Assembly: GCF_900660745.1 (NCBI RefSeq)
Contig: NZ_LR215048.1
Location: forward strand, 1,612,001 to 1,676,000
Length of the DNA: 64,000 nucleotides
Reading direction: 5' to 3'
Source: Haploplasma axanthum
Lineage (GTDB): Bacteria; Bacillota_I; Bacilli_A; Acholeplasmatales; Acholeplasmataceae
Shown here: positions 1,079-38,067 of the stretch, in pieces
Position numbering within the stretch: the stretch's first letter is position 1
How the letters are laid out: every line of letters begins with the position of its first letter
Notes under the pieces: generated by a model
What the model saw: the letters and a program-made list of their open reading frames with translations, nothing else
Told to the model about the DNA's origin: nothing
Databases searched by the model: none
Position numbers and translations under genes: made by a program

Positions 1079-2815
1079 TTATTTTTTAATATACTCAAAT
1101 GTTATTTCTACATTTCTAAGTTCAGCATACTTTTCACCATCAATTAATACTGCACGTGCTAATTTACTTAATCCTGGTTTAACATATCTTGCGTCATCAG
1201 GAATATTAGTAACCCAAGTATTATAAATATTAACTCTTGTTGTTATCTTATCATCTGAAACTGTATATGATTCTGCAGTTACTTTAACTACTTCACTATT
1301 TACTTTAATTTCTTTTATAGCAATAACATAATTTGGAAAATTGGTTTCCCCGTTATATATTCCCAGTGCCATAAATGTCATTGAATTAGCAAATCCACCA
1401 GATACACCACTAAAATCAAGTGATACTGTATATTCTCCTGCACCACTTACTTCGACATCAGTAGCAACTACACCAGCAGTTTTATCATTTGGATTATAAA
1501 AATTACCTTTACTATTACTATATCCAACATTATAATCTTTACTATTGTACATAATATATGCCATTACTTTATCTTCAAAACCTGTTGCTCCAGAAGGCGC
1601 ATCTAAAACTGCTTTATCTAACGCTTTTCTAGCATTATCTTTAATTGTTTCAATAGTCAGTTTTGATTCATTTTCAACGTTTCTACTTGAATATAGATTC
1701 GCTATTCCTTCATCTTTCATTTTCAGTTCTTTTCTATCAAAAAAATCACTTCTATCCCATAGTAACGGAACAAAATCATATAAATCTGAATTATCAAATA
1801 CATTTTTTATATACTCTAATGTATTTCCTTTTAATGTTCCATTTTTAAGTGGTATTGCAGCAAATTCTCCAAATACTACGCCATACCCCTTTTTAGTAAA
1901 TTTAGTCATTTTTTCAAACAACTCATTCATTTCTTGATATTCTTCTTTTGTTCCCCACTCGGTTTTAGATTCTCCATCTCCTGCATATGTCCATGGAGTA
2001 TAGTAGTGAACAGATACTAATTGTTTACCTTCAACTTTATCTGTCGGCATGATAAATCTATCATCAATAGTCTTTTCAATATCGGTATTATATCCAGCAA
2101 TTAATAAGAATCTATCTTCATTTTTACCACCAGTAGATCTAACAGTATCAACAAATTTCTGATTAATCTTATTAGTTACTTGATACGTCTCATCTTCTGT
2201 AAGTGTACCCTTAACTTCATTTATTTCATCATTTAATCTTGAACCAAGTTCTTCGTTCGCAGATTCTAAAATTAATTTATATGAGTAATCTTTAAAATGC
2301 TCTGAAATCTGTTTCCACATTTCCGTATACATAGTCATTGCTTTTTCTCTTGTTGATTGCTCAGGTTGACCAAACATTCCCCACCAACCACCAGACCAAT
2401 GTTCATTGACTATTACATACATATCAGCATCAAGTGCATAGTTAACAATTTCTGAAACTCTTTTTAATAGTTTCTCATTGATTACATAATTATCATTTTC
2501 GTAATCCATCATATTAGTCCATGCAACAGGGATTCTAATTGTATCAAAACCTGCCTCTTTCATGCCTTTAATCATTTCTTTAGTTGTAACTGGCATTCCC
2601 CATGCTGTTTCATACATTTCAGTATCTGCATCAATACCATGTTCAACTCTTCCATATGCTTCCATAGTATTTCCAAGATTTGTACCATTTCCCATATCTC
2701 TTGATACTTCAATTGCATTCATTTTTTTAATTCTATCTTCAGTTTTGTTAGACACACAACCTACTAAAATAAGTGATGTAATAATAGCTAAAAAACCAAA
2801 TATAATTTTTTTCAT
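1079..2815 (-). CDS. Lipoprotein GH5 endoglucanase with C-terminal carbohydrate-binding-like module
   Basis: A lipobox (LVGC, Cys20) predicts a membrane-anchored enzyme facing outward. Residues about 30-395 form a GH5 barrel: TIRIPVAW, the acid/base in SANEE (Glu188) and the nucleophile in VFGEFA (Glu317). Residues about 417-578 are a separate module with GAGEYTVSLDF, NGETNFPNYVI and TTRVNIYNTW. The same module is repeated four times in the surface protein at 7679-10033. The Shine-Dalgarno GGAGG is well placed at the ATG. GH5 chemistry and the neighbours suggest beta-1,4-glucan or mixed-linkage glucan as substrate, but GH5 also holds mannanases and others. A terminator-like hairpin separates it from the upstream YesL-like gene. 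Confidence 0.87.
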   Translation of the reverse strand: MKKIIFGFLAIITSLILVGCVSNKTEDRIKKMNAIEVSRDMGNGTNLGNTMEAYGRVEHGIDADTEMYETAWGMPVTTKEMIKGMKEAGFDTIRIPVAWTNMMDYENDNYVINEKLLKRVSEIVNYALDADMYVIVNEHWSGGWWGMFGQPEQSTREKAMTMYTEMWKQISEHFKDYSYKLILESANEELGSRLNDEINEVKGTLTEDETYQVTNKINQKFVDTVRSTGGKNEDRFLLIAGYNTDIEKTIDDRFIMPTDKVEGKQLVSVHYYTPWTYAGDGESKTEWGTKEEYQEMNELFEKMTKFTKKGYGVVFGEFAAIPLKNGTLKGNTLEYIKNVFDNSDLYDFVPLLWDRSDFFDRKELKMKDEGIANLYSSRNVENESKLTIETIKDNARKALDKAVLDAPSGATGFEDKVMAYIMYNSKDYNVGYSNSKGNFYNPNDKTAGVVATDVEVSGAGEYTVSLDFSGVSGGFANSMTFMALGIYNGETNFPNYVIAIKEIKVNSEVVKVTAESYTVSDDKITTRVNIYNTWVTNIPDDARYVKPGLSKLARAVLIDGEKYAELRNVEITFEYIKK

Positions 2816-2871: not shown

Positions 2872-3492
2872 TCAAGAAGATATATTATCATTCTCAATAT
2901 TTCTAAATATTTTTTTTGAAATTGCACTAGCACCATAAAAAACTGTACTTGGTCCAATAATTAGTCCTATAAAAATAAGCGGTACATTAAAATTAAAAAA
3001 TCCTATTAGTAATGCAACAACAATCCATAAAAGAATTGTTCTAAAAAAATACTTATATGTAATTTTTCTTGAGTTTAATAAAGTTCCTTTGATTGTATTT
3101 TCATATCTTGCTAGTAGTGGAAATGCATAGGTTATATGTACTAATCCAATATAAGATATGAAGATCCCAGATATTAAGAAAATAATTGGATTATCTTTTG
3201 CTTTATTAAAAACTTCAATATTAATATACGCACAATAAGCTAAAAAAATCGTTATTAATCCTAAAATGATTCCTTGCTTCAAATTCTTTTTAAATGATTC
3301 ATAAAAATCACTCATAATATTACCTTCATGATTATCAACCATTTTTAATGTAACACTATAAGCGGCTACTGTTGACGCGCCTATTGTAACAATTGGTAAG
3401 CTGAAAACTAACCATAAAAAATTAAGTTTTAAAATATCCCATAAAGTGGACATAAATTTGTATAGTTTACCATCTACTGAAAATAAACGCAT
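2872..3492 (-). CDS. YesL/DUF624 family membrane protein
   Basis: A 206-residue polytopic protein with about five membrane segments. The N-terminal pattern (KLYKFMSTLWDILKLNFLW followed by SLPIVTIGASTVA) is characteristic of the YesL/DUF624 family. These proteins recur beside Lpl/Yte-type CUT1 importers for complex oligosaccharides and are thought to be transport accessory factors, though no biochemical role is established. Here it directly follows the solute-binding protein gene, 27 bases away, with a good Shine-Dalgarno (AAAAGGTGA). I infer that it belongs to the same importer operon. Confidence 0.8.
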   Translation of the reverse strand: MRLFSVDGKLYKFMSTLWDILKLNFLWLVFSLPIVTIGASTVAAYSVTLKMVDNHEGNIMSDFYESFKKNLKQGIILGLITIFLAYCAYINIEVFNKAKDNPIIFLISGIFISYIGLVHITYAFPLLARYENTIKGTLLNSRKITYKYFFRTILLWIVVALLIGFFNFNVPLIFIGLIIGPSTVFYGASAISKKIFRNIENDNISS

Positions 3493-3519: not shown

Positions 3520-5202
3520 TTATTTTGAATTTTTAACTTGTTGTTCTAAAGTATGACGTCTTAATGCTTCTTGTTGTGACCATTCTAAACATAATTGGTA
3601 TCCATGTCCATTAGCTTTTCTAGTCATTTCATTTATATATATATTAAATTCTTTATCATCTTTAGCATATATCGCTTTCCAAGAACCATCAGTAATTTCT
3701 TTGATTACTCTTCCCCACTTAGCATTAAGTTCTGCATCTCTACTACCTTTACTAAAACTTGTTGCAATTGCAACTTTATAGTTAGTATGTTTTTCTAAAT
3801 ATTGTTGGTTATTATCAGAAGAAAACTCTTCACGCCATCTCTTGTGAACATCATTTAAGTTTTCACCTTGATTACTCTTCCAATAATCCCAATGGAATCT
3901 TTCTTCTTGTTTAGATTCTGGATTAATTGCATCAAGTGACCATGTTGTTCCACCAAGTTTATATGAACCATCTTTAAATGTTCCAGTATATCCGCTATCT
4001 GCTGGGAATGGTTCAGAAAGATTTTGTCTCATTTTCTTACCTAGTTCAGTAAATTTCGTATATCCTTCTTCATCATAATACCAGTTTAAATCTTTTGGAC
4101 CATATTCAACTGTCATTCTTCCCTCTGGAGTACTTAACCAGTTAATAATTTCCATAGCTAACTCAGGATATTGAGTCTTAGAGCCAATTGACCAAATATA
4201 TTCTCCACCCATAGGATTTAATCCATATACAAGTGGTGTTGCTTCACTTGGTGCAAGTGATAACATTATTTTTCCTGCATTCACGTGTTCACTAGTGTTA
4301 TAAGCTATATTCCCGGCATAATTAAAGATTGAGAAGAATGTTCCTCCTCTTTGAACCTTTTCAATCATCTTATCGTATGTTTGAGTCATTGAATCTGGAT
4401 CTATTAAACCTTCTTGGAATAATCTATTAAAGAATTTCAACATTTGGATATATGGTCCATTTTCTTCTAAAGCACCATGATAATCTCCTGTTTCAACATT
4501 ATATAAACCAATTCCAAGTTCATCTAACCCATAATATGCTGTTGCCATAGCTTTAACATACATTACCATTTCAGCATCCCAATCAGGCCATAAAGAAAGT
4601 GCATATGTTGGTGTTCCTGCCTCATCAAGAGGTTCAAGTTTTTTCATTTCTTTAAACAGTTCAACCAAATCATCTAAATCTTTTATTTCTGGTTTATTTA
4701 ATCTTTCATATAAATCATATCTAATATCCCATGTATAAAAGAATGAAGCGTGATCATCAGCATTTAATGCAACATCATGTCCAAATCCTAACAACTTATT
4801 GTTGCCGTTTAAGTTACGATTCTTTTCTAATGCTTTTCCAAAATTCTCTTTAATGTATGGTCCAAATTCATCTAATAAACCATCTTGTTCCCAATCAAAT
4901 AGCAAGTTTTTTTCAACAGCATTTTTATATCTAATGCCATCTTCTCCCCAAACTACTATATCTCCTAAATTACCTGATTCAACTCTTGTAGTATAGATAT
5001 TTTCTCCATCATTAACAATGTTGATTTTTACATTAAATTTCTTTTCTAAAACTTCTGCAAACCATCCTTTCATTTCTCCAGAACTATTTGCAAGTTGACT
5101 ATAAACAGTTAAAGTAACTGTCTCTTTTTTAGGTGTACAAGCAGCTAACACCGTAAATAGTGTTAGCAATAATGTCAAACCCATAATAGAATATTTTTTC
5201 AT
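3520..5202 (-). CDS. Extracellular solute-binding lipoprotein of a CUT1 (LplA-type) sugar importer
   Basis: The lipobox LAAC (Cys22) follows a hydrophobic N-terminus, so this is a membrane-anchored binding protein. At 560 residues it matches the large LplA-type binding proteins for oligosaccharides, not the roughly 420-residue MalE type. The family region TPEGRMTVEYGP is visible. I chose the ATG at 5202, which has AAGGAGG 7 bases upstream; the longer frame start at 5229 reads into the preceding permease gene. It follows the two permease genes and is surrounded by beta-glycanases, so the inferred ligands are beta-glucan oligosaccharides. Confidence 0.88.
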   Translation of the reverse strand: MKKYSIMGLTLLLTLFTVLAACTPKKETVTLTVYSQLANSSGEMKGWFAEVLEKKFNVKINIVNDGENIYTTRVESGNLGDIVVWGEDGIRYKNAVEKNLLFDWEQDGLLDEFGPYIKENFGKALEKNRNLNGNNKLLGFGHDVALNADDHASFFYTWDIRYDLYERLNKPEIKDLDDLVELFKEMKKLEPLDEAGTPTYALSLWPDWDAEMVMYVKAMATAYYGLDELGIGLYNVETGDYHGALEENGPYIQMLKFFNRLFQEGLIDPDSMTQTYDKMIEKVQRGGTFFSIFNYAGNIAYNTSEHVNAGKIMLSLAPSEATPLVYGLNPMGGEYIWSIGSKTQYPELAMEIINWLSTPEGRMTVEYGPKDLNWYYDEEGYTKFTELGKKMRQNLSEPFPADSGYTGTFKDGSYKLGGTTWSLDAINPESKQEERFHWDYWKSNQGENLNDVHKRWREEFSSDNNQQYLEKHTNYKVAIATSFSKGSRDAELNAKWGRVIKEITDGSWKAIYAKDDKEFNIYINEMTRKANGHGYQLCLEWSQQEALRRHTLEQQVKNSK

Positions 5203-5212
5203 ATTTACCTCC

Positions 5213-6109
5213 TTAGCCCTTAACGGCACCTAACATAATTCCCTTTTCAAAATATCTTTGCATAAAAGGATATACTATAAATATTGGTATAAGAGTTACC
5301 ATTGTAACTGTATACTTTAAAACTTTACTATTTAAAGCCATTGCTGCAGCATTCGGTGAACTTGATATTATATCTTTCAAGTTACTTGCTTCATTTAAAT
5401 ATACATATAATCTATGTTGCAATGTATATAATTTGGGCGCATTTTGCATATATACTAATGAATCTATGAATGAATTCCAATGATTTACTGCCCCAAAGAT
5501 TGCAATTGTAGCTAGAATTGGTTTTGAAAGCGGCCATATAATCTTTCTAAAAACCATAAAGTATCCAGCACCATCAATTAATGCACTTTCTTCCAATTCT
5601 CTAGGAATTGATTCAATGTATGTTTTAACTAAGATAATATTATATGGAGCAATAATTGAAGGAATTATATATCCCATAAAATTATCAGTTAAACCTAACA
5701 TAGATAAATTTAAGAATACTGGCATAATTCCTGCATTAAAATACATCGTAATAATTAAGAATCTATACCAAAACTTTCTATTTCTCATTTCTTCTTTAGT
5801 TACTAAATACCCAATAAATGCAGATGCTAAAACCATAAGTCCAGTACCTAAAACTGTTCTTGCAACTGTTACAACAAACGAAACACCAAGATCATTAACC
5901 GATGTAAGTGCTAAATAGTTTCTAATATTTATCCCTACTGGTATGAAGTTTATCATTCCTTTTTGTACAGCATCATTATTAGATATTGTGTTTATAAATA
6001 TATAATAAAACGGAAATATACAAGCTAATGTAAAGAGGAAAAATACAGTGTAGTTAGCAATATTGAATAAAGCATCTTTAAATGTTAAATTTTTAAATTT
6101 CTTTTTCAT
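5213..6109 (-). CDS. CUT1 ABC importer permease, LplC type
   Basis: 298 residues with six predicted membrane segments. The cytoplasmic EAA loop that docks the ATPase is visible as EESALIDGAGYF followed by KPILATI. It ends in the usual GIMLGAVKG. Its length is normal for the family. Shine-Dalgarno AGGAGG precedes the ATG. It lies 12 bases after the partner permease and 10 bases before the binding protein, which indicates one operon. No ATPase gene is present in this cluster, so the MsmX-type ATPase at 36679-38067 probably energises it. Confidence 0.9.
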   Translation of the reverse strand: MKKKFKNLTFKDALFNIANYTVFFLFTLACIFPFYYIFINTISNNDAVQKGMINFIPVGINIRNYLALTSVNDLGVSFVVTVARTVLGTGLMVLASAFIGYLVTKEEMRNRKFWYRFLIITMYFNAGIMPVFLNLSMLGLTDNFMGYIIPSIIAPYNIILVKTYIESIPRELEESALIDGAGYFMVFRKIIWPLSKPILATIAIFGAVNHWNSFIDSLVYMQNAPKLYTLQHRLYVYLNEASNLKDIISSSPNAAAMALNSKVLKYTVTMVTLIPIFIVYPFMQRYFEKGIMLGAVKG

Positions 6110-6121
6110 GTTTTTCCTCCT

Positions 6122-7561
6122 CTATATAATACTTTCTTTTCTTATTACTTTAGATGCTTTATTAACACTAAACAATAAGATAATACTTATTAATGATTTC
6201 AACATACCAACAACCGTTGACAATGCTATATTTGGATTTTTACTTGCAATACCTAACTGATAAACATATAAGTCTAATACTTCCATCTTTCCAGTATTAA
6301 TTGCGTTTTGGAACACTAAATATTGATCCATACCATTGCTTAAAATATTTGCAACAGACATTATTAATAATACGAAGAATGTTGGCATTAATGAAGGTAG
6401 TGTAATATATCTCATTTTTTGGAATCTTGTTGCTCCATCAATTGATGCTGATTCATACATTGCTGGGTCAATACTTGATATTGATGCGATATAAATAATG
6501 GCACTCCATCCTATACCTTTCCACATACCCCAAGCCCACATTTTAACCCATGTAAAACTTCCATCCATTAAATAATTCTTATTACCACCAAAAATACCAT
6601 TTACAAATCCATCAGTAGAAAACATTGCAAGTGCAATCGAATAAACAATTACCCAGCTTATAAAGTTTGGAATTGTTGAAAAGATTTGAACGAATTTTTT
6701 AAACTTTGTACTTGTTATTTCAACTAAGAACATTGCAAAGAACATTGGTAACCAACTAGTCAATAATCCTAAACCACTCATTGCCAATGTATTTCCTAAA
6801 ACTCTAAACATATCATTTCTCATCGATTCATTTTGGAATAAGAAAGTAAACCACCTAAAACCAACAAAATTATCAGCATTTAATTGCCCACCTACTTGAT
6901 AGTCATAAAATGCATATCGCCATCCTGTTAAAGGTAGATACGAGAATACGAAAATTAAGGCAGCAAACGGTAAGAACATTAATAACAGTTGATTTCCACC
7001 ACTCATCTCATATCGTTCTTCTTTACTAGATTTTGGTACTAATATTAATAGTATAACTGACAAAATTAATACCAATACTGCTAATATCAAGAAGATATAG
7101 AATCCTTGTGAGAATCTTGGCATCACTCTTTCTAAATTTTTTGAACCACTTATTTTTACATAGCTAATATAGATTCCTATTAAACCTAAAATTTGTAATG
7201 AGCTTCCAATCAATGTAACTCTATTTGCTAAATTTTTAAATTTCGTATTTCCTATTTGTAATGTTGAACCAACTAGTGTTGCAATAATTGCTAAAACTGA
7301 AATCAAACTTGAAACAAATATAATTATAAAATCAATTTGATTTACCCATTCTAATCTTATTGCACGCTGTGCTTCACTTACAAGTCTATTATATGAAATC
7401 GCTGATGTAAAAAATGACATAGTTTTATTAATCAATTCTGTAACTCTAGCAGGATTAATACTTGGTACAAAAGTTAATACAGCAGAAATTACTGCTAATA
7501 CAACTAATGCAATTTGCATTCCACCTACTATTTTCACTTTAAGTTTATTTTCTTCGTTCAT
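6122..7561 (-). CDS. CUT1 ABC importer permease, LplB type, with N-terminal membrane extension
   Basis: The C-terminal roughly 300 residues are a normal LplB-type permease with the EAA loop YESASIDGATRFQKM. The N-terminal roughly 180 residues are extra: about four additional membrane segments joined by a charged linker (KSSKEERYE). Usual family members are about 300-320 residues, against 479 here. I chose the ATG at 7561 because GAGGAG is 8 bases upstream; the ATG at 7567 is only 2 bases from it. The gene begins the importer operon, after a hairpin that separates it from the surface-protein gene. Confidence 0.87.
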   Translation of the reverse strand: MNEENKLKVKIVGGMQIALVVLAVISAVLTFVPSINPARVTELINKTMSFFTSAISYNRLVSEAQRAIRLEWVNQIDFIIIFVSSLISVLAIIATLVGSTLQIGNTKFKNLANRVTLIGSSLQILGLIGIYISYVKISGSKNLERVMPRFSQGFYIFLILAVLVLILSVILLILVPKSSKEERYEMSGGNQLLLMFLPFAALIFVFSYLPLTGWRYAFYDYQVGGQLNADNFVGFRWFTFLFQNESMRNDMFRVLGNTLAMSGLGLLTSWLPMFFAMFLVEITSTKFKKFVQIFSTIPNFISWVIVYSIALAMFSTDGFVNGIFGGNKNYLMDGSFTWVKMWAWGMWKGIGWSAIIYIASISSIDPAMYESASIDGATRFQKMRYITLPSLMPTFFVLLIMSVANILSNGMDQYLVFQNAINTGKMEVLDLYVYQLGIASKNPNIALSTVVGMLKSLISIILLFSVNKASKVIRKESII

Positions 7562-7618
7562 AGTCATTTCTCCTCATAATATTAAAATGTAGTTAACCCA
7601 CATTTAAACTCAATAAAG

Positions 7619-7678: not shown

Positions 7679-10033
7679 TTATCTATTCTTTTTTAATAAC
7701 ATAGCAATTGTAACTGCTGATGTTATAACTCCAATTGCAGCAATGATACTAACAATTATAAGTGCTGTATTATTAGTCTTAGCTGGTGCACTTGGATTTG
7801 GTGTTGGATTAGGTGTAGGATCTACTGGTGTTGGATCTACCGGAGTTGGATCAACTGGTGTATCTCCTTCAATACCTGTACCTGTAATTGTAAATTCAAT
7901 TTTAATTTCATCTTTTGGATTCAATTGAGCTGGATCAACTGCAGATTTTTCCATTCCACTTGGTGCCCATTGATTATGTAATTGAATTCTAAGATTTCCT
8001 TTATCTTCTAAATCACCAACATAAATATTACTTGCTGTAACATTAATTTCTTTTCCATCAACCCAAACTTTAACAGAAACTTTAAGATCTTCAGCTATCA
8101 TATATTTTCCATCAGAATTTGCTTTTAGAGTTCCTATTTTAATCATTGCCTCTGCTAATCCTACAATATCAACAGTTAAAACACGTCCTGATTCAGCTTG
8201 TTCTGCAGCATTAACATCATCTTTTGTAATAGTTACAGTATATTTTCCATCACCTTTAAATTTAGTATCTCCTGCTTTACCAGCTTCTTGATGTGACCAA
8301 GCATCTTTGGCATCATTAAAACCTAAGAATGCAATAAACTCTGTTGGAAGTTCATATTCTTCAAATCCACCAACTGTTACTGAGAAAATAATTTCAATAG
8401 TAGTAATTTCTAGTTCCTCATTTTCATCAATAATAAGAGGACTATTTGTTGCATTATCTAATTCAACATTTCCTGCTACACGTGAATCTACATCTGCTTT
8501 TGTTTCAACAGCAGCAATCAATCCTGTTTCTGTATCAGTTATGTCCGCAGATGTAAAACTATTTCCTAGTTTTCTTTCAACACCATTAATTGTAATCTTA
8601 TCAATTCTTATAAAACTATTTGGGAAGTACTTTTCACCTTCTAATATGTTTAAGCTTAATAATCTAATATCATCAATTTTCCCAGCATCTGTTGCTGTAA
8701 AATCTAATGATGCTGTATATTGTCCATAACCTGTAATAGTTGGTTCAACTTTTACAACTTTATCATCTGTTACTTTTGCACCATCAACTTTAATAAATGC
8801 ATTTGGTTTAACTTTTTCAGGATCAGTTGGAACTGAAACTTTATCAACTGGTACTGGTCTAACACTAGCACCTGGCATCAATGTAAACGTAACTTCTAAT
8901 TTTGATACTTCAATTTTGTTAAGTTCTTCGCCTAAAACATAGTTTACTTTTACGTTATCACCAACAACATCTGTTCTTTGAACGATAGGTTTAGATGTAA
9001 TATATCCGCTTCCTAACCCTAAGAATGTACGAGCATTTTTAATAGTCGCATCATCTTGCCAATCATTAAATAGATTTGTTCTTGTATCAAGTTTATTATC
9101 AGAAGAAGTATAAGTCGTTCTAAGTGATACTTCTTTATCATTAATCTTAACACTAGTTATTTGCATATAACTCATTGGGAAAACAAATTCACCATTCAAG
9201 ATTTCAACATCAAAGAATGCAAATCCATTTCCACTTTTTCCTTCTGGCACTTGATATGAAACAGTGTATTCTTCTCCATATCCAGTTACTTCTTGATAAA
9301 CAGCACCTGCTTGTTCTGTTCCATCATACCAATGTTGAACACCCCAATCAGCACTTGCATAATTAATATAAGCAACTGTTTTTCCTGTTCCAGCAGTAAC
9401 ATCAAATTTGATACCATCTTTAACAGTAAATGTTATTTCAATTTTCGTGATACCTTCAAACTTGTTAAAAACTTTTTCAAGATCTATAGCATTAGCTGTA
9501 ACTGCTGCCGATCCAAACTCTGTTCTACCTTTGTTAACATTTCCCCATTCATTAGATATATTAACTCTTGTATCAAATCTTACTTCTCCTGTTTCCTTAC
9601 CATCAGCATCTTTGATTTTATTTTCTTCTGAAGTTGTATACGTTTTACCACTCAAAATTTTATCTTCGTTTTTCACTTCATCAAAAAACTCAGTACCATT
9701 AATCTTAAACTGATCAATAACAAGAACTTTATTAGAAAGAATTGACTCACCATCAAAAACTTCAAGAGCTAAGAAATTTAATTCTTTTATACTATCTCCC
9801 GTTTCACTAAAATCAACAGATACAGTATATTGTCCGTCTCCACTTACTTTTTCATTAACAACGGCAACTTTTTCCGTTCCGTTTGTTAACTGCCAACCAT
9901 TACCACCAACATTAATAAATGCAGTTCTACTGTTTTCTTCAGCATTAACATGATTTATAAAACCACCAATTGTAAACAATGATAAAAACATCGTAAATAC
10001 CGCGATAAATAATTTCTTACTAATTTTTTGCAT
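7679..10033 (-). CDS. Membrane-anchored surface protein of four tandem carbohydrate-binding-like modules
   Basis: The signal peptide spans residues 1-31. Four divergent copies of one module follow, at roughly 36-206, 219-388, 417-555 and 567-727. Recurrent elements are GxGxYTVSxDF, GExxFPN, a YTSSDNKLDTR-like strand, a N-x-W turn and a closing EITFTV-like strand. A Pro-rich spacer with VDPTP repeats (about 730-750) leads to a single C-terminal membrane helix and a KKNR stop-transfer end. There is no catalytic domain and no LPXTG. The module also forms the C-terminus of the GH5 lipoprotein. I infer a glycan-capture protein on a wall-less surface; binding itself is not shown by the sequence. 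I cannot assign the module confidently to a numbered CBM family. Confidence 0.75.
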   Translation of the reverse strand: MQKISKKLFIAVFTMFLSLFTIGGFINHVNAEENSRTAFINVGGNGWQLTNGTEKVAVVNEKVSGDGQYTVSVDFSETGDSIKELNFLALEVFDGESILSNKVLVIDQFKINGTEFFDEVKNEDKILSGKTYTTSEENKIKDADGKETGEVRFDTRVNISNEWGNVNKGRTEFGSAAVTANAIDLEKVFNKFEGITKIEITFTVKDGIKFDVTAGTGKTVAYINYASADWGVQHWYDGTEQAGAVYQEVTGYGEEYTVSYQVPEGKSGNGFAFFDVEILNGEFVFPMSYMQITSVKINDKEVSLRTTYTSSDNKLDTRTNLFNDWQDDATIKNARTFLGLGSGYITSKPIVQRTDVVGDNVKVNYVLGEELNKIEVSKLEVTFTLMPGASVRPVPVDKVSVPTDPEKVKPNAFIKVDGAKVTDDKVVKVEPTITGYGQYTASLDFTATDAGKIDDIRLLSLNILEGEKYFPNSFIRIDKITINGVERKLGNSFTSADITDTETGLIAAVETKADVDSRVAGNVELDNATNSPLIIDENEELEITTIEIIFSVTVGGFEEYELPTEFIAFLGFNDAKDAWSHQEAGKAGDTKFKGDGKYTVTITKDDVNAAEQAESGRVLTVDIVGLAEAMIKIGTLKANSDGKYMIAEDLKVSVKVWVDGKEINVTASNIYVGDLEDKGNLRIQLHNQWAPSGMEKSAVDPAQLNPKDEIKIEFTITGTGIEGDTPVDPTPVDPTPVDPTPNPTPNPSAPAKTNNTALIIVSIIAAIGVITSAVTIAMLLKKNR

Positions 10034-10213
10034 AATTATTTCCTTTCTATTTTCTTATTTTTTGCCACACTTATGCTTGTGACATCTAAACCCCATATCC
10101 ATTTTCTTGTCTTTTAAAGATTTTCTTTAAAATGAGTGTAAATAACTCACGTGCTGTTATTCACTAATGAACTTATTCTCTTTGTTGAAGCTTAGTTTAT
10201 CAGTTGTCCTAAC

Positions 10214-10227
10214 CGAAAACGTTTTCG
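10214..10227 (-). promoter_or_regulatory. Perfect LacI-type operator at the start of the surface-protein transcript
   Basis: CGAAAACGTTTTCG is a perfect 14-bp palindrome with a central CG, as expected for a LacI-family repressor. It lies just downstream of the -10 box at 10235-10240 and covers the predicted transcription start. Confidence 0.8.
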
Positions 10228-10234
10228 CACATTT

Positions 10235-10263
10235 ATTATAACATCACGAAAAAACGTTGTCAA
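10235..10263 (-). promoter_or_regulatory. Consensus sigma-A promoter for the surface-protein/importer locus
   Basis: TTGACA, a 17-base spacer and TATAAT match the housekeeping consensus exactly. The predicted leader is about 195 bases long. It contains the inverted repeat TTTTAAAG/CTTTAAAA near 10110-10135 and ends in the Shine-Dalgarno AAAGGAAA before the ATG at 10033. Confidence 0.85.
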
Positions 10264-10281
10264 TTCACAAAAATCACTCCT

Positions 10282-10295
10282 TGTAAGCGTATTCA
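10282..10295. promoter_or_regulatory. cre-like site (catabolite control)
   Basis: TGTAAGCGTATTCA fits the Bacillus cre pattern TGNAANCGNWWNCA at every fixed position. It lies upstream of the -35 box of the surface-protein promoter, where CcpA-type proteins can modulate transcription. No ccpA gene is in the window, and LacI-family operators look similar, so the bound protein is uncertain. Confidence 0.5.
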
Positions 10296-10339
10296 CGAAA
10301 ATATTTAAATTAATCGCTTTGTTATCACGTTTAAATCAA

Positions 10340-10352
10340 GAAATCGTTTTCG
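10340..10352. promoter_or_regulatory. Second LacI-type operator-like site
   Basis: CGAAAACGATTTC on the minus strand resembles the perfect operator about 125 bases away. Paired sites at this distance are typical of repression by DNA looping. The rest of the 10034-10437 gap holds the promoter, the leader and the GH3 terminator, with no credible gene. Confidence 0.45.
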
Positions 10353-10382
10353 TAAAATCTTTTTTTATTACTTAAACAAAGT

Positions 10383-10409
10383 AAAAAAACGCCATTTTAT
10401 TGGCGTTTT
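10383..10409 (-). terminator. Terminator of the GH3 gene
   Basis: A 9-bp stem, AAAACGCCA/TGGCGTTTT, with a 6-base loop and a T7 run on the minus strand, directly downstream of the GH3 stop codon. Confidence 0.85.
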
Positions 10410-10437
10410 AGTGTTTATTATTCTATATGTCTCGATA

Positions 10438-13437
10438 TTAACCGTGTTTTATTACATTAATGCTATGGACATTAAGTCCAGTCTTGTGGAATTTAAATGA
10501 AATATATTCATTCGTTTTATCTATAATAACAAAACTTGTAATTTTAACTTTATTTCCTTCTGTTCCGTTTGTTGTTAGTGTTTGTTTATTAATATTATCA
10601 ACGTAAACGGAGAAAGGCATTTGATATATACTTGGCAAGTTTGCTGAGATTTCTAATTCAACAATATACTTACCAAATTCTTTTGGTTCTACAGCATATA
10701 TGTATATTGATCCTTTTTCAATATTACTCCAAGAATCATTAGCGAGTTGATTTTTATATACAAATCCATTTAAATCTAGATCTATTCTTCCCCAATTTGT
10801 ATTTGGAAGTTTATAAATATTAGTTTTATTTACATTCTTTAGAATATCAGTTATTTCATCAACTTTAAGTGCTGGTTTAACACCAAATGTATACAAACTT
10901 TGTTCAGCATTAGTTATTAATCCATATGTTATTTGATTTTTATTTTCCAAAATATCAAATTTTGACTTTAAATTATTATCAGCTTCATTTTCAAAACTTG
11001 TTAACATATCTTGATTAATGAACGGATATTTCGAGTGAGTTTCATTTGTTTTAAACCAATAATCAATTTTCTTTTCATTACTTGTTACTTGGATATTATG
11101 TTTACGCTTAAATACAGGAGTTTCCATAATAAATTTCAAAATATTATGAACATTTCTTTGAATTTCAGCTAAAGTAATATTACCTTTTTGATATTCTTCT
11201 AATAAATTGTTTTTATACTCTAAAACATTTGGAACAACCATGTAAAGATCATTTTGAGCTCTAACCATTACAGCAATATTTTCCTTACTTGGTTCATCAT
11301 TATCAGTGTTCATTTGTGCCCACCAATCTGTCATAACAATTCCTTCAAACTTCCATTCATTTCTTAAAATGGTAGTTGTTAAATCGTAATTGCTTGCAGT
11401 CCAAATTCCATTAATTGGATTATATGCAGTCATAATAACACTTGCTTTTGCTTCTTTTACAGCTATTTCAAATCCTTTTAAATATATTTCTCTTAATGCT
11501 CTTTCAGAAATTATACTATTTGCAATTGTTCTTGCAGTTTCTTGATTGTTTGCTGCAAAATGCTTAAGTGATCCGTTAACTCCAGATTTATGTAACCCTT
11601 GAACTACCGCGCTTGCCATAATTCCTGTTAATAATGGATCTTCACTAAAATATTCAAAGTTTCTTCCATTTAAAGGATGTCTTTGAATATTCATACCAGG
11701 ACCTAGTATTATATCAATATCATAATTTCTCATTTCTAGTCCTTCTAGTTCATATAAATCTTTAACAAGACTTGGATTGAATGTTGATGCAAGTAGCGTT
11801 CCATTTGGAAGACTAGTTGCAAATCCACCACTATCCATTCTTATTCCCGATGGACCATCTGAACAACATGCAATTGGAATTTCTTTTTCTAACAATTCAT
11901 CTGTTACACCACCAAAAGCACTTGCTGTACCTGCAGTAACTTTAGGACTTGACATTCCTTCACCTAATGATATATTTTTCATATCATTAATTGATAATGA
12001 TCCAATAAATTCTTCAAGAGTTATTTTTTTATTAAGTACATCTGTTAAAGTATAGTTTTCATTATTTAATTTAAATGACTTTGGGAAATTATTTTTAATT
12101 CTTGTTTGAAGATCAATTGTTCTTTGTGGAACTGCTTCAAAGGTAATTTTATACTTATTATCTTTTGTTAAACTTGGTTTGATTCTTTTGTATTTTTTAA
12201 TAGGCGCCATTGCTTCTGTAAGTTTTTCAACAACAATATTTTCATCTAATACTTTAGTTAATGCAAGTTTGTTATTTCTTAACGATGTTCCTACATAAAT
12301 ACTATACAAACCTTTTTCAAGTACATATGCTGATTTTTGGATATATCCAAAATCATCATAACTTGCCATTTTACTCATTTCAACTTCAATTGTAACTATT
12401 TCTTTTTCTTTTGGTTTAATAAGTTTAGTCTTTTTAAATGCTAATAGTTCAATTTTAGGTTTACCAAGTACACCTTGAGGTGCACTAAAATAAACTTGAA
12501 CAGTTTCTTTTCCAATAAACTCTCCTGTATTTTTAACTTCAACATCAAGTTTAAACTTATTATCTTTAATTTGATGATTGACAACATTCACTTCAAAAGT
12601 TGAATAACTTAATCCAAAACCAAATGGATATAAAACATCATCTTCATAAAATGTTTCGAAAAAACGATATCCAACATAAATATCTTCTTCATAAATAACT
12701 TCTTTTTTATTACCAAAATTTTTGTTCGCTGGATAATTATCTAATGTTTTTACAATTGTAGCTGGAAGTTTACCACTTGGTGTTATATATCCTGAAATAA
12801 CATCTACGGTTGCTCTTGCACCGTCTTGTCCACCATGCCATGCGTATAATAGACCATCAACATCTAGTTCTTTAATAAAATTCATATCAATGATATTACC
12901 AACATTTAAGATAACAACAACTTTTCCATAAATCTTTTTAATTGTTTTAATAGCTTGATATTCAATTTCGGTTAGCAAATAACTTCCTTCACCTTTATGA
13001 TTATCTCTATCTTCACCAGCAGTTCTTCCAATAATCATTATTGGCGTTTCGTTCTCACGTTTAATCTTTTTGATAAGATCTTGTGTAATTTCCATTTCTT
13101 CTTGTGCCCAAGGTTCACTTGCCCACATACCATTTCCAGCATTAAATGGATTCTCTGCTATCCATTTATCATAAATTTGAACAAGTTCTTTGTTAACATC
13201 TATTCTTGGATTTTCATTAAACGCTTCAAGGAAACTTGGAACATCTGTTACGTTAACTAATCCACCTGATCCTGTTCCACTTTTATAATAGTCTTTTTGA
13301 ATTCTACCAAAAAGTGCTACTTTACCGTTTATGATTGGTAAAATACTATTTTTGTTTTCTAATAAAACATTCCCTTCATGCGCAACTCTTCTAGCAAAAT
13401 CACGCAAAGGCTTTAATGGTTCATTTTTATTTTTCAC
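10438..13437 (-). CDS. Glycoside hydrolase family 3 beta-glucosidase with permuted domains
   Basis: The domain order is reversed from the usual GH3. The GH3 C-terminal alpha/beta sandwich comes first (about 13-270, EGNVLLEN, then ALFGR), then a fibronectin-III-like domain (about 285-375), then the catalytic barrel (about 470-800). KHFAANNQE and the nucleophile Asp in IVMTDWWA (about residue 704) are intact. A further roughly 150 residues follow at the C-terminus. There is no signal peptide, so it probably hydrolyses imported cello-oligosaccharides in the cytoplasm. Translation appears to start at GTG (13437) after AGGGTGAT, because a nearby ATG reads into a stop. Permuted GH3 enzymes are known from Ruminococcus-type bacteria. 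It has its own promoter region and terminator. Confidence 0.9.
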   Translation of the reverse strand: MKNKNEPLKPLRDFARRVAHEGNVLLENKNSILPIINGKVALFGRIQKDYYKSGTGSGGLVNVTDVPSFLEAFNENPRIDVNKELVQIYDKWIAENPFNAGNGMWASEPWAQEEMEITQDLIKKIKRENETPIMIIGRTAGEDRDNHKGEGSYLLTEIEYQAIKTIKKIYGKVVVILNVGNIIDMNFIKELDVDGLLYAWHGGQDGARATVDVISGYITPSGKLPATIVKTLDNYPANKNFGNKKEVIYEEDIYVGYRFFETFYEDDVLYPFGFGLSYSTFEVNVVNHQIKDNKFKLDVEVKNTGEFIGKETVQVYFSAPQGVLGKPKIELLAFKKTKLIKPKEKEIVTIEVEMSKMASYDDFGYIQKSAYVLEKGLYSIYVGTSLRNNKLALTKVLDENIVVEKLTEAMAPIKKYKRIKPSLTKDNKYKITFEAVPQRTIDLQTRIKNNFPKSFKLNNENYTLTDVLNKKITLEEFIGSLSINDMKNISLGEGMSSPKVTAGTASAFGGVTDELLEKEIPIACCSDGPSGIRMDSGGFATSLPNGTLLASTFNPSLVKDLYELEGLEMRNYDIDIILGPGMNIQRHPLNGRNFEYFSEDPLLTGIMASAVVQGLHKSGVNGSLKHFAANNQETARTIANSIISERALREIYLKGFEIAVKEAKASVIMTAYNPINGIWTASNYDLTTTILRNEWKFEGIVMTDWWAQMNTDNDEPSKENIAVMVRAQNDLYMVVPNVLEYKNNLLEEYQKGNITLAEIQRNVHNILKFIMETPVFKRKHNIQVTSNEKKIDYWFKTNETHSKYPFINQDMLTSFENEADNNLKSKFDILENKNQITYGLITNAEQSLYTFGVKPALKVDEITDILKNVNKTNIYKLPNTNWGRIDLDLNGFVYKNQLANDSWSNIEKGSIYIYAVEPKEFGKYIVELEISANLPSIYQMPFSVYVDNINKQTLTTNGTEGNKVKITSFVIIDKTNEYISFKFHKTGLNVHSINVIKHG

Positions 13438-28592: not shown

Positions 28593-30188
28593 TCACTTAA
28601 TCTTTCTTGTTACTCTAAATGTGAATTTTTCTTGTGCAATATTTCCCCAAGCATCTTCAACTTGAACCATAATTACATAATCACCTTCAATATTTGTGTT
28701 AAGTTTTGAAAATTCACCACTTGGAACATAAAAATGTTGTGTTAAATCGCCATCACGATTGTCTGTTACCATAATAATCGGGAATTTATTTTGATCAAAC
28801 TTTTTATTCCAAGCAATTTCAATAATTCTATCTGCTTCAGCTACACCAGAGAAATTAGGTGAAACAAATCTAATTACTGGTTTTTCTCTATCCAAATCAA
28901 GCTCTAATTCTGCTTCTCTTGGTGTTTCTAAATCTCCATCATTAAAGAAAACTTTGTATCGTTTATTAATATCTAAATCATTTTTTAAAGTAATAACAAA
29001 ATCCTTCAATGTCTTGTTTGATGTTCCTTTTGCATAGTCAACACTTTCAAATGCAATTTCTTCACCATATGTTTCAGTAGTAGCATCTACTGCTGATGTT
29101 ATTTCTTTAATTTTAAACCAGCTTTTAATTTTATTATCTGCTGCTAGTTTTTCATCATCAGTTTCGGCTAATACATATAGGTTTTGTAACTCTTGATTTG
29201 TTTGAACAATTACTGTTCTTTTATCTATTGCATATGTTCCACTTGCCTCTTTACCTTGAGCCTTAGGAGTAAATCCTACTAATTCAAATGCGAATGCTTC
29301 TTTTCTAAATGATTCAGGATTATTCACCCAAACATTATTCATTGTTGTATTATTATTTCCTTTGTTTACAACATATACAAAATCTAATTGACCTGTAGCT
29401 TTTTTATTTTCAATATACGCTGCGTTGTCTTCTGTATTTGGTTTAATATCCCCTGTTTTTTTACTGTTGTCACCATCTCCATAGTATAAAAGTGCAACTG
29501 GCTCTTTTTCTAAATCTTCATAATATAAAATCCCAGCTTTAATGAATGTTCCAACTGTTGATTTTCCTGCATTGTTAAAAATCTTCAAAGGATTATTCCA
29601 TCCCACAGCATTACTTGATGCTTCAAAACCATCACTATGAACTCCTAAGTTTTCTTCATAACTATTAGTTGGATCATAATAAACAATAACTATTCCTTGC
29701 TTATCAGGATTTGCAACAATATATGTTGATTCCCCATCTGCATCTTTTTCTTCATTTGTTCTTGTATTACTTCCTTCGAAAACATAAATATGAACTGTTT
29801 TATCAGCAACAACTACAGAATTTTGAATCTCGTGATTTGCATATTTTCTACTCCAGTTTTGCACTTCGGTTTCTTGACCTACATTATCAAAACCAACTGC
29901 TTGAAATCCCATTGAACCTTCACTTCTAACTGGAACATCATTCAATTCCCAGAAAATTCCAAAATCATCTGTTTTTGTTTTTTCACTTAATGCTGTTGGT
30001 CCTTTAATACCTTCTGCCCAAGTATCAGCTCCAATTCCCCACGTATTTAAGCCGACATCTTCGTATTCACCATCTAATTTTTGAAAATGAATAACTAAAT
30101 TACCTTTACCTTCGGCTCTTACACTAACTGTTTGTACTAGTAAAACTGATGATATCGCCATCAATAAAACACATAAAAACTTTTTCAT
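28593..30188 (-). CDS. Secreted starch-binding-like protein, first gene of the mal operon
   Basis: 531 residues with a signal peptide (about 1-25, no lipobox). Residues about 30-135 (LVIHFQK, then GLNTWGIG) and about 165-280 (IVIVYYDPTNSY, VGWNNPLKIFNNAG) resemble CBM41/pullulanase-associated starch-binding domains. The C-terminal roughly 90 residues form an Ig-like repeat (VTDNRDGDL, then VEDAWGNIA). No catalytic domain or membrane anchor is seen. It leads an operon with malEFG, glgP and an amylase, so I infer that it holds starch or dextrin near the cell, comparable in role to SusE/F. Function is inferred from domain resemblance. Confidence 0.7.
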   Translation of the reverse strand: MKKFLCVLLMAISSVLLVQTVSVRAEGKGNLVIHFQKLDGEYEDVGLNTWGIGADTWAEGIKGPTALSEKTKTDDFGIFWELNDVPVRSEGSMGFQAVGFDNVGQETEVQNWSRKYANHEIQNSVVVADKTVHIYVFEGSNTRTNEEKDADGESTYIVANPDKQGIVIVYYDPTNSYEENLGVHSDGFEASSNAVGWNNPLKIFNNAGKSTVGTFIKAGILYYEDLEKEPVALLYYGDGDNSKKTGDIKPNTEDNAAYIENKKATGQLDFVYVVNKGNNNTTMNNVWVNNPESFRKEAFAFELVGFTPKAQGKEASGTYAIDKRTVIVQTNQELQNLYVLAETDDEKLAADNKIKSWFKIKEITSAVDATTETYGEEIAFESVDYAKGTSNKTLKDFVITLKNDLDINKRYKVFFNDGDLETPREAELELDLDREKPVIRFVSPNFSGVAEADRIIEIAWNKKFDQNKFPIIMVTDNRDGDLTQHFYVPSGEFSKLNTNIEGDYVIMVQVEDAWGNIAQEKFTFRVTRKIK

Positions 30189-36678: not shown

Positions 36679-38067
36679 TTATTTTTTAGTTGTTTTTTTA
36701 GCTGGTTCTTTTTTTGTTGTTGTAGTTTTCTTTGCTGGAGTTTTTGATGTAGTAGCTTTTTTCACTGGTGCTTTTTCAGCTACTTTCTTTTCTTCTTTTG
36801 GTTCAACAACTTTAACTTCTTCAACTACTGTTTCTTCGACTGCAACTACTTCTTCAACTTTTGCTGGTTTTTCAGTTTTTTCTTCAACTTTAGTTGTTTT
36901 GTTAGCAAACTTAAGTCTCTTAATACCATGTGGTTGATCTTCTAATGAAATTGGTTTACCATTTTCATAACGTAATCTTAAATCTGTTTCAATATCAAAG
37001 AAATGAACTTTTTCAGGATCTAAAGCAAGTTCTAATTGGTTACCCATTTGAATTCCTGTCTTAGCATTTACAACCGCACAAACATTTGATTCATTTAGTG
37101 TTGTATAAATATTTGTTTCTGAACCTAATAATTCTGCAACATCAACAGTAACTTTAACTGTTGTATCTTTGAATCTTTCATCTTCAGTTGATCCTAAATG
37201 TAAATCTTCTGGTCTAATACCTAATGTAACTTCTTTATTAATCATATAGAAATCTTCTAAAATCTTAATTTGTTTCTTAGGTAATTTAACTGTTTGTCCA
37301 TTAATAGTGAACTCACCTTTTTCATTAACAACTACGTTAAGGAAGTTCATTGGTGGAGTACCCATAAATCCTGCAACGAATTTATTGATTGGGCCATCAT
37401 AAATATTTTTAGGTGTATCAACTTGTTGGATATATCCTTGATCCATAACTACGATTCTATCAGCCATTGTCATCGCTTCAATTTGATCGTGCGTTACGTA
37501 AATTGTTGTTGTTTCAATTTGGCGGTGAAGTTTAATTAATTCCCCACGCATTTGAACTCTTAACTTAGCATCTAAGTTTGATAATGGTTCGTCCATCAAG
37601 AATACTTTAGCATTACGAACGATTGCTCTTCCTAATGCAACTCTTTGTCTTTGTCCCCCTGATAAAGCCTTAGGTTTACGTTTTAAATATTCTGTTAATC
37701 CTAAGATTTTAGCAGCATGCATAACTTTTTCTTCGATTTCTGCTTTAGGCATTTTTCTAAGTTTTAGACCGAAAGCCATGTTATCATATACAGTCATATG
37801 TGGGTATAGAGCATAACTTTGGAAAACCATCGCAATGTTACGATCTTTTGGTGGTTGATCATTTACTAAATCTTGATCAATATATAATTCACCACTTGAA
37901 ATATCTTCTAATCCTGCTACCATTCTTAATGTAGTTGATTTACCACATCCTGATGGACCTACTAATACAATAAATTCTTTATCTTTAATTTCTAAATTAA
38001 AATCAAAAACTGCTTGTACACCATTAGGATAAACTTTATTTAAATCTTTTAATAATAATGTTGCCAT
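36679..38067 (-). CDS. msmX: Sugar ABC transporter ATPase (MsmX/MalK type) with long acidic-then-basic tail
   Basis: Residues about 1-235 are the ATPase: Walker A GPSGCGKST, signature LSGGQRQRVALGRA, Walker B VFLMDEPLSNLD and the His-switch VTHDQ. Residues about 235-375 are the TOBE-type regulatory domain. The last roughly 80 residues are unusual: a Glu/Val-rich stretch, then a Lys/Ala/Thr-rich end resembling histone-H1-like tails. Typical MsmX proteins stop near 370. Both CUT1 clusters lack an ATPase, so this one probably serves both, as MsmX does in Bacillus. Shine-Dalgarno AAGGAGG precedes the ATG. Confidence 0.93.
   Translation of the reverse strand: MATLLLKDLNKVYPNGVQAVFDFNLEIKDKEFIVLVGPSGCGKSTTLRMVAGLEDISSGELYIDQDLVNDQPPKDRNIAMVFQSYALYPHMTVYDNMAFGLKLRKMPKAEIEEKVMHAAKILGLTEYLKRKPKALSGGQRQRVALGRAIVRNAKVFLMDEPLSNLDAKLRVQMRGELIKLHRQIETTTIYVTHDQIEAMTMADRIVVMDQGYIQQVDTPKNIYDGPINKFVAGFMGTPPMNFLNVVVNEKGEFTINGQTVKLPKKQIKILEDFYMINKEVTLGIRPEDLHLGSTEDERFKDTTVKVTVDVAELLGSETNIYTTLNESNVCAVVNAKTGIQMGNQLELALDPEKVHFFDIETDLRLRYENGKPISLEDQPHGIKRLKFANKTTKVEEKTEKPAKVEEVVAVEETVVEEVKVVEPKEEKKVAEKAPVKKATTSKTPAKKTTTTKKEPAKKTTKK

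Follow-up and report, generated by a model that had tools for sequence, protein, structure and literature searches.

We analyzed a gene encoding a putative surface protein of Haploplasma axanthum, located in a window of 64,000 nucleotides (contig NZ_LR215048.1, positions 1,612,001 to 1,676,000; coordinates below count from the first letter of this window unless another locus is named, and (-) marks the reverse strand). The protein, here called MMP for multi-module protein, carries four copies of a module that recurs at the end of a glycoside hydrolase family 5 (GH5) lipoprotein of the same locus, and its gene adjoins those of an ATP-binding cassette (ABC) importer. The gene and its parts are the following:

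7679..10033 (-), MMP, 784 aa, from the open reading frame and its translation
9941..10033 (-), signal peptide, residues 1-31, from the hydrophobic N-terminus and a similar pattern in the orthologue L020
9398..9931 (-), module 1, residues 35-212, from BLASTP matches to modules 2 and 3 and the GH5 module (E 5e-11 to 1e-13)
8858..9391 (-), module 2, residues 215-392, the most typical copy, with the motif TRTNLFNDW at residues 317-325
8354..8809 (-), module 3, residues 409-560, from BLASTP and shuffle relatedness and the orthologue alignment
7874..8353 (-), module 4, residues 561-720, a divergent member, from an hhalign match to a profile of 74 module sequences
7772..7873 (-), Pro/Thr-rich spacer, residues 721-754, from the sequence, disordered in the model
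7688..7768 (-), C-terminal membrane helix, residues 756-782, followed by KKNR, from the model helix and the hydrophobic stretch

The layout given in a preliminary description of this DNA, namely a signal peptide, four modules, a Pro-rich spacer and a C-terminal helix without enzyme domain, was borne out by the open reading frame, BLASTP, Pfam and NCBIfam searches and AlphaFold2. Neither the Pfam nor the NCBIfam search detected an enzyme domain in MMP, and the model of the whole protein displayed beta-rich domains over the four modules, disorder at residues 726-758 (predicted local distance difference test, pLDDT, <50) and a helix at residues 756-782. The signal peptide is predicted to be cleaved after VNA.

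We also looked at how MMP could be held at the cell. Its C-terminus has no LPxTG motif and thus falls outside the sortase-anchored class, and neither a penicillin-binding transpeptidase nor a sortase was found in the genome, in agreement with an organism that looks wall-less. The preliminary description had seen in MMP a Sus-like solution in a wall-less cell. Enzyme-free tandem modules on a membrane anchor are indeed present, while the SusCD part is replaced by an ABC importer, and the helix as an adaptation to wall-less life had to be rejected since multi-module proteins of walled Lachnospiraceae have it too: in many of them the C-terminus is a similar helix with lysines, again lacking LPxTG. 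Two versions from metagenome-assembled genomes (MAGs; L022, L023) possess a lipobox instead of the helix, and others have no C-terminal helix.

The same module closes the GH5 lipoprotein of the locus, as already claimed in the preliminary description:

1079..2815 (-), GH5 endo-glucanase lipoprotein (Pfam Cellulase, 6.5e-44)
1082..1585 (-), GH5 C-terminal module, residues 411-578, the last 168 residues (BLASTP to module 2 E 8e-15, z 18)

Modules 1, 2 and 3 of MMP and the GH5 C-terminus are mutually related (BLASTP E 1e-8 to 1e-15), with local-alignment scores 14-18 standard deviations above 300 shuffles. Module 4 was weak in direct pairwise comparison (z 1-6); its membership among the four repeats comes from a match to the 74-sequence module profile (A6; hhalign probability 92%, E 6e-7) and from its conservation in MMP orthologues. 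The module is a discrete contiguous domain C-terminal to GH5, both in the window and in 66 copies from other loci.

To what fold and family the module belongs was addressed by prediction and by database comparison. AlphaFold2 of module 2 alone, with 74 natural sequences, gave a confident and mostly beta model (pLDDT 90.7, predicted template modelling score 0.87) of a beta-sandwich. Sequence searches of Pfam, NCBIfam and the PDB, with single modules and with 12- and 74-sequence profiles, returned no credible match, and none of the Pfam carbohydrate-binding module (CBM) families scored credibly against the window modules and the 74 module sequences. Foldseek against the PDB found no match at E <= 0.001 for the module or for the whole MMP. 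By VIA-align, the best hit of the module was the C-terminal domain of a cycloisomaltooligosaccharide glucanotransferase (Z 5.0, root-mean-square deviation 3.3, 102 residues), which is within noise, as are CBM32 chains (Z 3.1-4.0, 93-97 residues aligned) and discoidin-type domains (Z 3-4). These CBM32- and discoidin-like beta-sandwiches are weak but recurrent fold neighbours, without sequence match, so that membership is not assignable; the pattern of these hits fits a galactose-binding-like beta-sandwich but lies within noise. A missing structure match does not by itself make the fold new. The earlier suggestion of a possibly new CBM family gained in that nothing curated in Pfam or NCBIfam and no solved structure fits, and a new CBM-like family is plausible by comparison with Pfam, NCBIfam and the PDB, not with CAZy or dbCAN profiles. 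No description of the module or of MMP was found in the open papers searched, a search that left subscription papers and preprints outside.

Conservation within the family indicated where a ligand might bind. In module 2 numbering, R318, N320 and Y/F322 are 97-100% conserved and alternate on one strand with the hydrophobic residues 319 and 321, and W325 and W230 are almost as strictly conserved. Because of this alternation, the R-x-N-x-Y residues should face away from the hydrophobic core, as binding residues would, which suggests that the strand forms a candidate binding face in the modelled fold. The core motif is retained in 66 of 66 GH5-linked and in 64 of 66 enzyme-free module copies. Within the window MMP, module 4 retains the R-x-x-L-H-N-x-W core and module 1 the R-N-N-W residues without the aromatic loop (VQHFFG in orthologues). 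Module 3 has lost both the R-N-Y-N-W motif and the aromatic loop, whereas its orthologues keep KQTRLNFYNIW or near variants, and it is probably non-binding. Considering these losses in modules 1 and 3, modules 2 and 4 would be the best binding candidates.

We then asked how widely the module occurs. Searching about 85,000 species genomes with a six-sequence alignment (a 12-sequence alignment was too diverse) confirmed 223 relatives. The best 78 loci fall almost entirely in Lachnospiraceae, Oscillospiraceae and further Clostridia, and according to their record titles many stem from samples of rumen, gut or termites. The module recurs in two settings, singly at the C-terminus of GH5 and in two to four copies in enzyme-free proteins. 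No relative was found on viral contigs. A homologue of the window permease lies directly downstream of the enzyme-free multi-module gene in all 25 loci whose sequence continues downstream of that gene, at a distance of -12 to 571 bp, usually accompanied by the solute-binding protein (SBP) of the importer and often by DUF624 and GH5. Within the class, two uncultured Acholeplasmatales MAGs, from another family, encode MMP orthologues 40-42% identical to that of the window, with four modules in the complete one, and both share the order multi-module gene, two permeases, SBP, DUF624, GH5 with module. In a midpoint-rooted GH5 tree, the window sequence groups with the two sequences from these Acholeplasmatales MAGs (support 98/85), next with an unclassified Bacillota MAG (94/86), and otherwise stands among Clostridia; together with the patchy distribution, this tree suggests gene transfer. 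The module and the MMP-type system are thus not a mollicute invention and represent a widespread Clostridia-type system, apparently undescribed.

Among 150 related genomes, the only two matches outside the own genome (G101 and G129; loci L003 and L004) were set aside as MMP relatives, as they cover only the Pro-rich tail and the helix. Since both come from the same order as the window, the spacer with its helix may be a common surface anchor there. Separately, several Oscillospiraceae loci (L026 1504-3264, L027 6934-8601, L048 2-1408, L055, L060, L065, L070) encode a protein of 470-590 aa just before the GH5-module gene; its similarity to the module is faint, and it is possibly a far-diverged capture protein.

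In the window, MMP and GH5 enclose the importer genes, and a beta-glucosidase gene lies upstream:

6122..7567 (-), ABC permease of the 480 aa type, adjoining MMP (Pfam BPD_transp_1; synteny)
5213..6109 (-), ABC permease of the 300 aa type (Pfam BPD_transp_1)
3520..5229 (-), extracellular solute-binding lipoprotein, the SBP (Pfam SBP_bac_1, 3.5e-8; lipobox LAAC)
2872..3492 (-), DUF624/MusI-like membrane protein (Pfam DUF624, 9.5e-18; MusI model 98.5 bits, cut-off 160)
10438..13437 (-), GH3 beta-glucosidase, upstream of MMP (Pfam GH3 domains; nearest solved structures are beta-glucosidases)

A search for PDB relatives of the SBP, as a clue to the ligand, found none. The GH3 protein has its C-terminal domain preceding the N-terminal one, with about 220 extra residues at its end without Pfam match. 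No ATPase was seen among those genes of the putative xyloglucan cluster that were examined; an ABC ATPase containing a Walker A motif is encoded at 36679-38067 in an alpha-glucan cluster of the window and may serve both importers.

The MMP gene is preceded by its own putative control elements:

10235..10263 (-), sigma-70 type promoter, TTGACA-17-TATAAT, 12/12 consensus positions, ahead of MMP
10215..10226, LacI-type operator palindrome GAAAACGTTTTC, just downstream of the -10 box
10340..10351, copy of GAAAACGTTTTC with one mismatch, 125 bp from the first

None of 100 shuffles reached 3 matches to the operator palindrome. A terminator-like stem (10409-10386) separates the GH3 gene from MMP, which is therefore probably the first gene of its operon. 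Left of the window, the flanking sequence L103 contains the same pair of operators, likewise 125 bp apart, and one further site, upstream of two LacI genes, so that candidate LacI-type operators appear shared between the MMP operon and the left-flank cluster. In L103 we also observed near-identical GH94 genes (1-2097 and 8259-10679) and very similar LacI genes (5497-6504 and 10690-11706); these paired genes, a few kilobases apart, are a segmental duplication. Between MMP and the permease, a 14-bp stem-loop with a weak T tail (7650-7619) could cut transcription, leaving the surface protein in excess over the importer.

The cluster left of the window points to the likely substrate. On the MMP strand it continues with GH2, GH31, GH29, a LacI regulator, GH94 and GH43, and the N-termini of these enzymes, read by eye, present no evident export signals. 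The GH31 is the sole one of the genome and resembles YicI, a known alpha-xylosidase, over nearly its full length (E 3e-277), while among solved structures the GH29 resembles alpha-L-fucosidases and an exo-alpha-L-galactosidase. In E. ruminantium (L050), GH29, GH31 and GH42 surround the corresponding genes, and genes for xylose isomerase and xylulokinase, assigned by sequence, are present in the Acholeplasmatales loci L018-L020. Judged from its predicted enzymes, the set fits a fucosylated and galactosylated xyloglucan, and the locus one for fuco-galacto-xyloglucan. Among the glycans that the preliminary description listed for binding tests (cellulose, lichenan, xyloglucan and mannan), the gene context favours xyloglucan over the others.

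Considering module, architecture, gene order and enzymes together, we regard it as probable that MMP serves a xyloglucan utilisation locus as its glycan-capture component. MMP would be exported, held in the membrane by its C-terminal helix, and would present a flexible string of four beta-sandwich modules binding soluble (xylo)glucan chains or large oligosaccharides. The bound glycan would be kept near the GH5 lipoprotein, which bears the same module, and near the SBP of the importer encoded directly downstream; GH5 would cut the chain outside and the importer would take up branched oligosaccharides. Inside, the fucosidase GH29, the beta-galactosidase GH2, the alpha-xylosidase GH31, the beta-glucosidase GH3 and the phosphorylase GH94 would finish the degradation. 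A more far-reaching claim seems to us evenly balanced: that the module founds a new xyloglucan-binding CBM family and that enzyme-free multi-module proteins are an undescribed and widespread class of transporter-linked surface glycan-binding proteins of Firmicutes and Mollicutes, a SusE/F counterpart for ABC importers.

Several points weigh against the capture role. For no member of the module family could binding data be found, and structure comparison connects the module with no characterised CBM (VIA-align Z at best 5.0-5.1, noise range). Exposure of the conserved residues is inferred from strand alternation and not from coordinates. Given the motif lost from module 3 and the aromatic loop lost from module 1, at most two or three of the four modules may bind. 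Finally, several beta-glucans can be substrates of GH5 enzymes of this kind, and the ligand might accordingly be broader.

This last point leads to the alternative that the module binds beta-1,4-glucans in general, with cellulose, mixed-linkage glucan or glucomannan as the ligand and xyloglucan too narrow a definition. The nearest solved structures of GH5 include cellulases and a beta-1,3-1,4-glucanase besides xyloglucanases, and a GH31 is missing from the retrieved flanks of most GH5-module loci. On the other hand, the YicI-type GH31, the GH29 and the GH2 suit the side chains of xyloglucan, while cellulose or lichenan would offer them no substrate, leaving to a broader ligand a small though appreciable probability. 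The main rival to a role in capture is that the modules mediate protein-protein contacts, the anchored string docking GH5 and SBP into a surface complex without binding glycan. A homotypic scaffold would explain both why the module is common to the GH5 and the anchored protein within a locus and why the anchored gene always lies beside the importer. We nonetheless consider it improbable: the copies of a single protein share as little as about 30% identity, which is unlike docking repeats maintained for a common partner, and many loci have a GH5-module gene with no enzyme-free protein in view within their limited flanks (the rest of the genome may hold one), which suits a binding module better than one half of a docking pair. 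That MMP is a structural stalk or general adhesin, with modules as mere spacers, several of them degenerate, and a gene carried along in the operon, would agree with the conserved positions lost from modules 1 and 3, yet it is very improbable in view of the core motif kept in nearly all enzyme-free copies, the strict gene order across distant taxa and the strong promoter and operator of the MMP gene itself.

Glycan capture by MMP for an ABC importer can be compared with known systems. SusE/SusF-type surface glycan-binding proteins of Bacteroidetes are enzyme-free, multi-domain and surface-anchored, and are encoded beside an importer. MMP is likewise enzyme-free, multi-module and next to an importer, an analogy without convincing homology, as Pfam SusF_SusE scored 11.1 bits against MMP (E 0.48; cut-off 27.5); in contrast to SusE/F, it stands beside ABC permeases and an SBP instead of SusC/SusD, with no outer membrane. 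As for a Gram-positive xyloglucan oligosaccharide locus, we found ABC permeases, SBP, GH31, GH3 and beta-galactosidase without export signals, identified by Pfam and PDB relatives. In Ruminiclostridium cellulolyticum, experiments have demonstrated that the work is divided in much the same way, with outside cleavage, ABC import and inside trimming of xyloglucan (PMC4780118). The locus described there is alike in having two permeases and an SBP without an own ATPase, and a GH31 alpha-xylosidase, a GH3 beta-glucosidase and a beta-galactosidase, all without signal sequences. It differs in that extracellular cleavage proceeds via cellulosomes (a lipoprotein GH5 in the window), regulation is of two-component/AraC type (LacI in the window), GH42 takes the place of GH2, and no multi-module binding protein is named in that part of the paper (PMC4780118). 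Sas20 of Ruminococcus bromii is also an enzyme-free Gram-positive protein with discrete flexible glycan-binding domains unpredictable from sequence, but it concerns starch, an amylosome complex instead of a transporter operon, and different domains (PMC9112005). CBM112 of Bacteroides GH26 mannanases is an example of how such a family is founded, although it binds mannan and its sequences were not compared with the module (PMC13357471).

What makes these results interesting is that the module could not be placed and that an enzyme-free binding-like protein is strictly paired with an ABC importer. If the proposed function holds, the plant-fibre toolkit of rumen and termite-gut Clostridia would include a new family-level glycan-binding module, loci with ABC importers could, like the Sus loci of Bacteroidetes, possess a protein dedicated to capture, and a full hemicellulose locus would exist in a mollicute, a group usually viewed as reduced parasites. 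A multi-module gene just before a permease gene would also provide a simple signature for finding such loci. As a separate observation, the alpha-glucan cluster of the window encodes at 28593-30188 an exported protein that lacks an enzyme domain and has weak matches to pullulanase-associated (PUD) and bacterial Ig-like domains, again beside an ABC importer, which is perhaps a second capture protein, for starch-like glucans.
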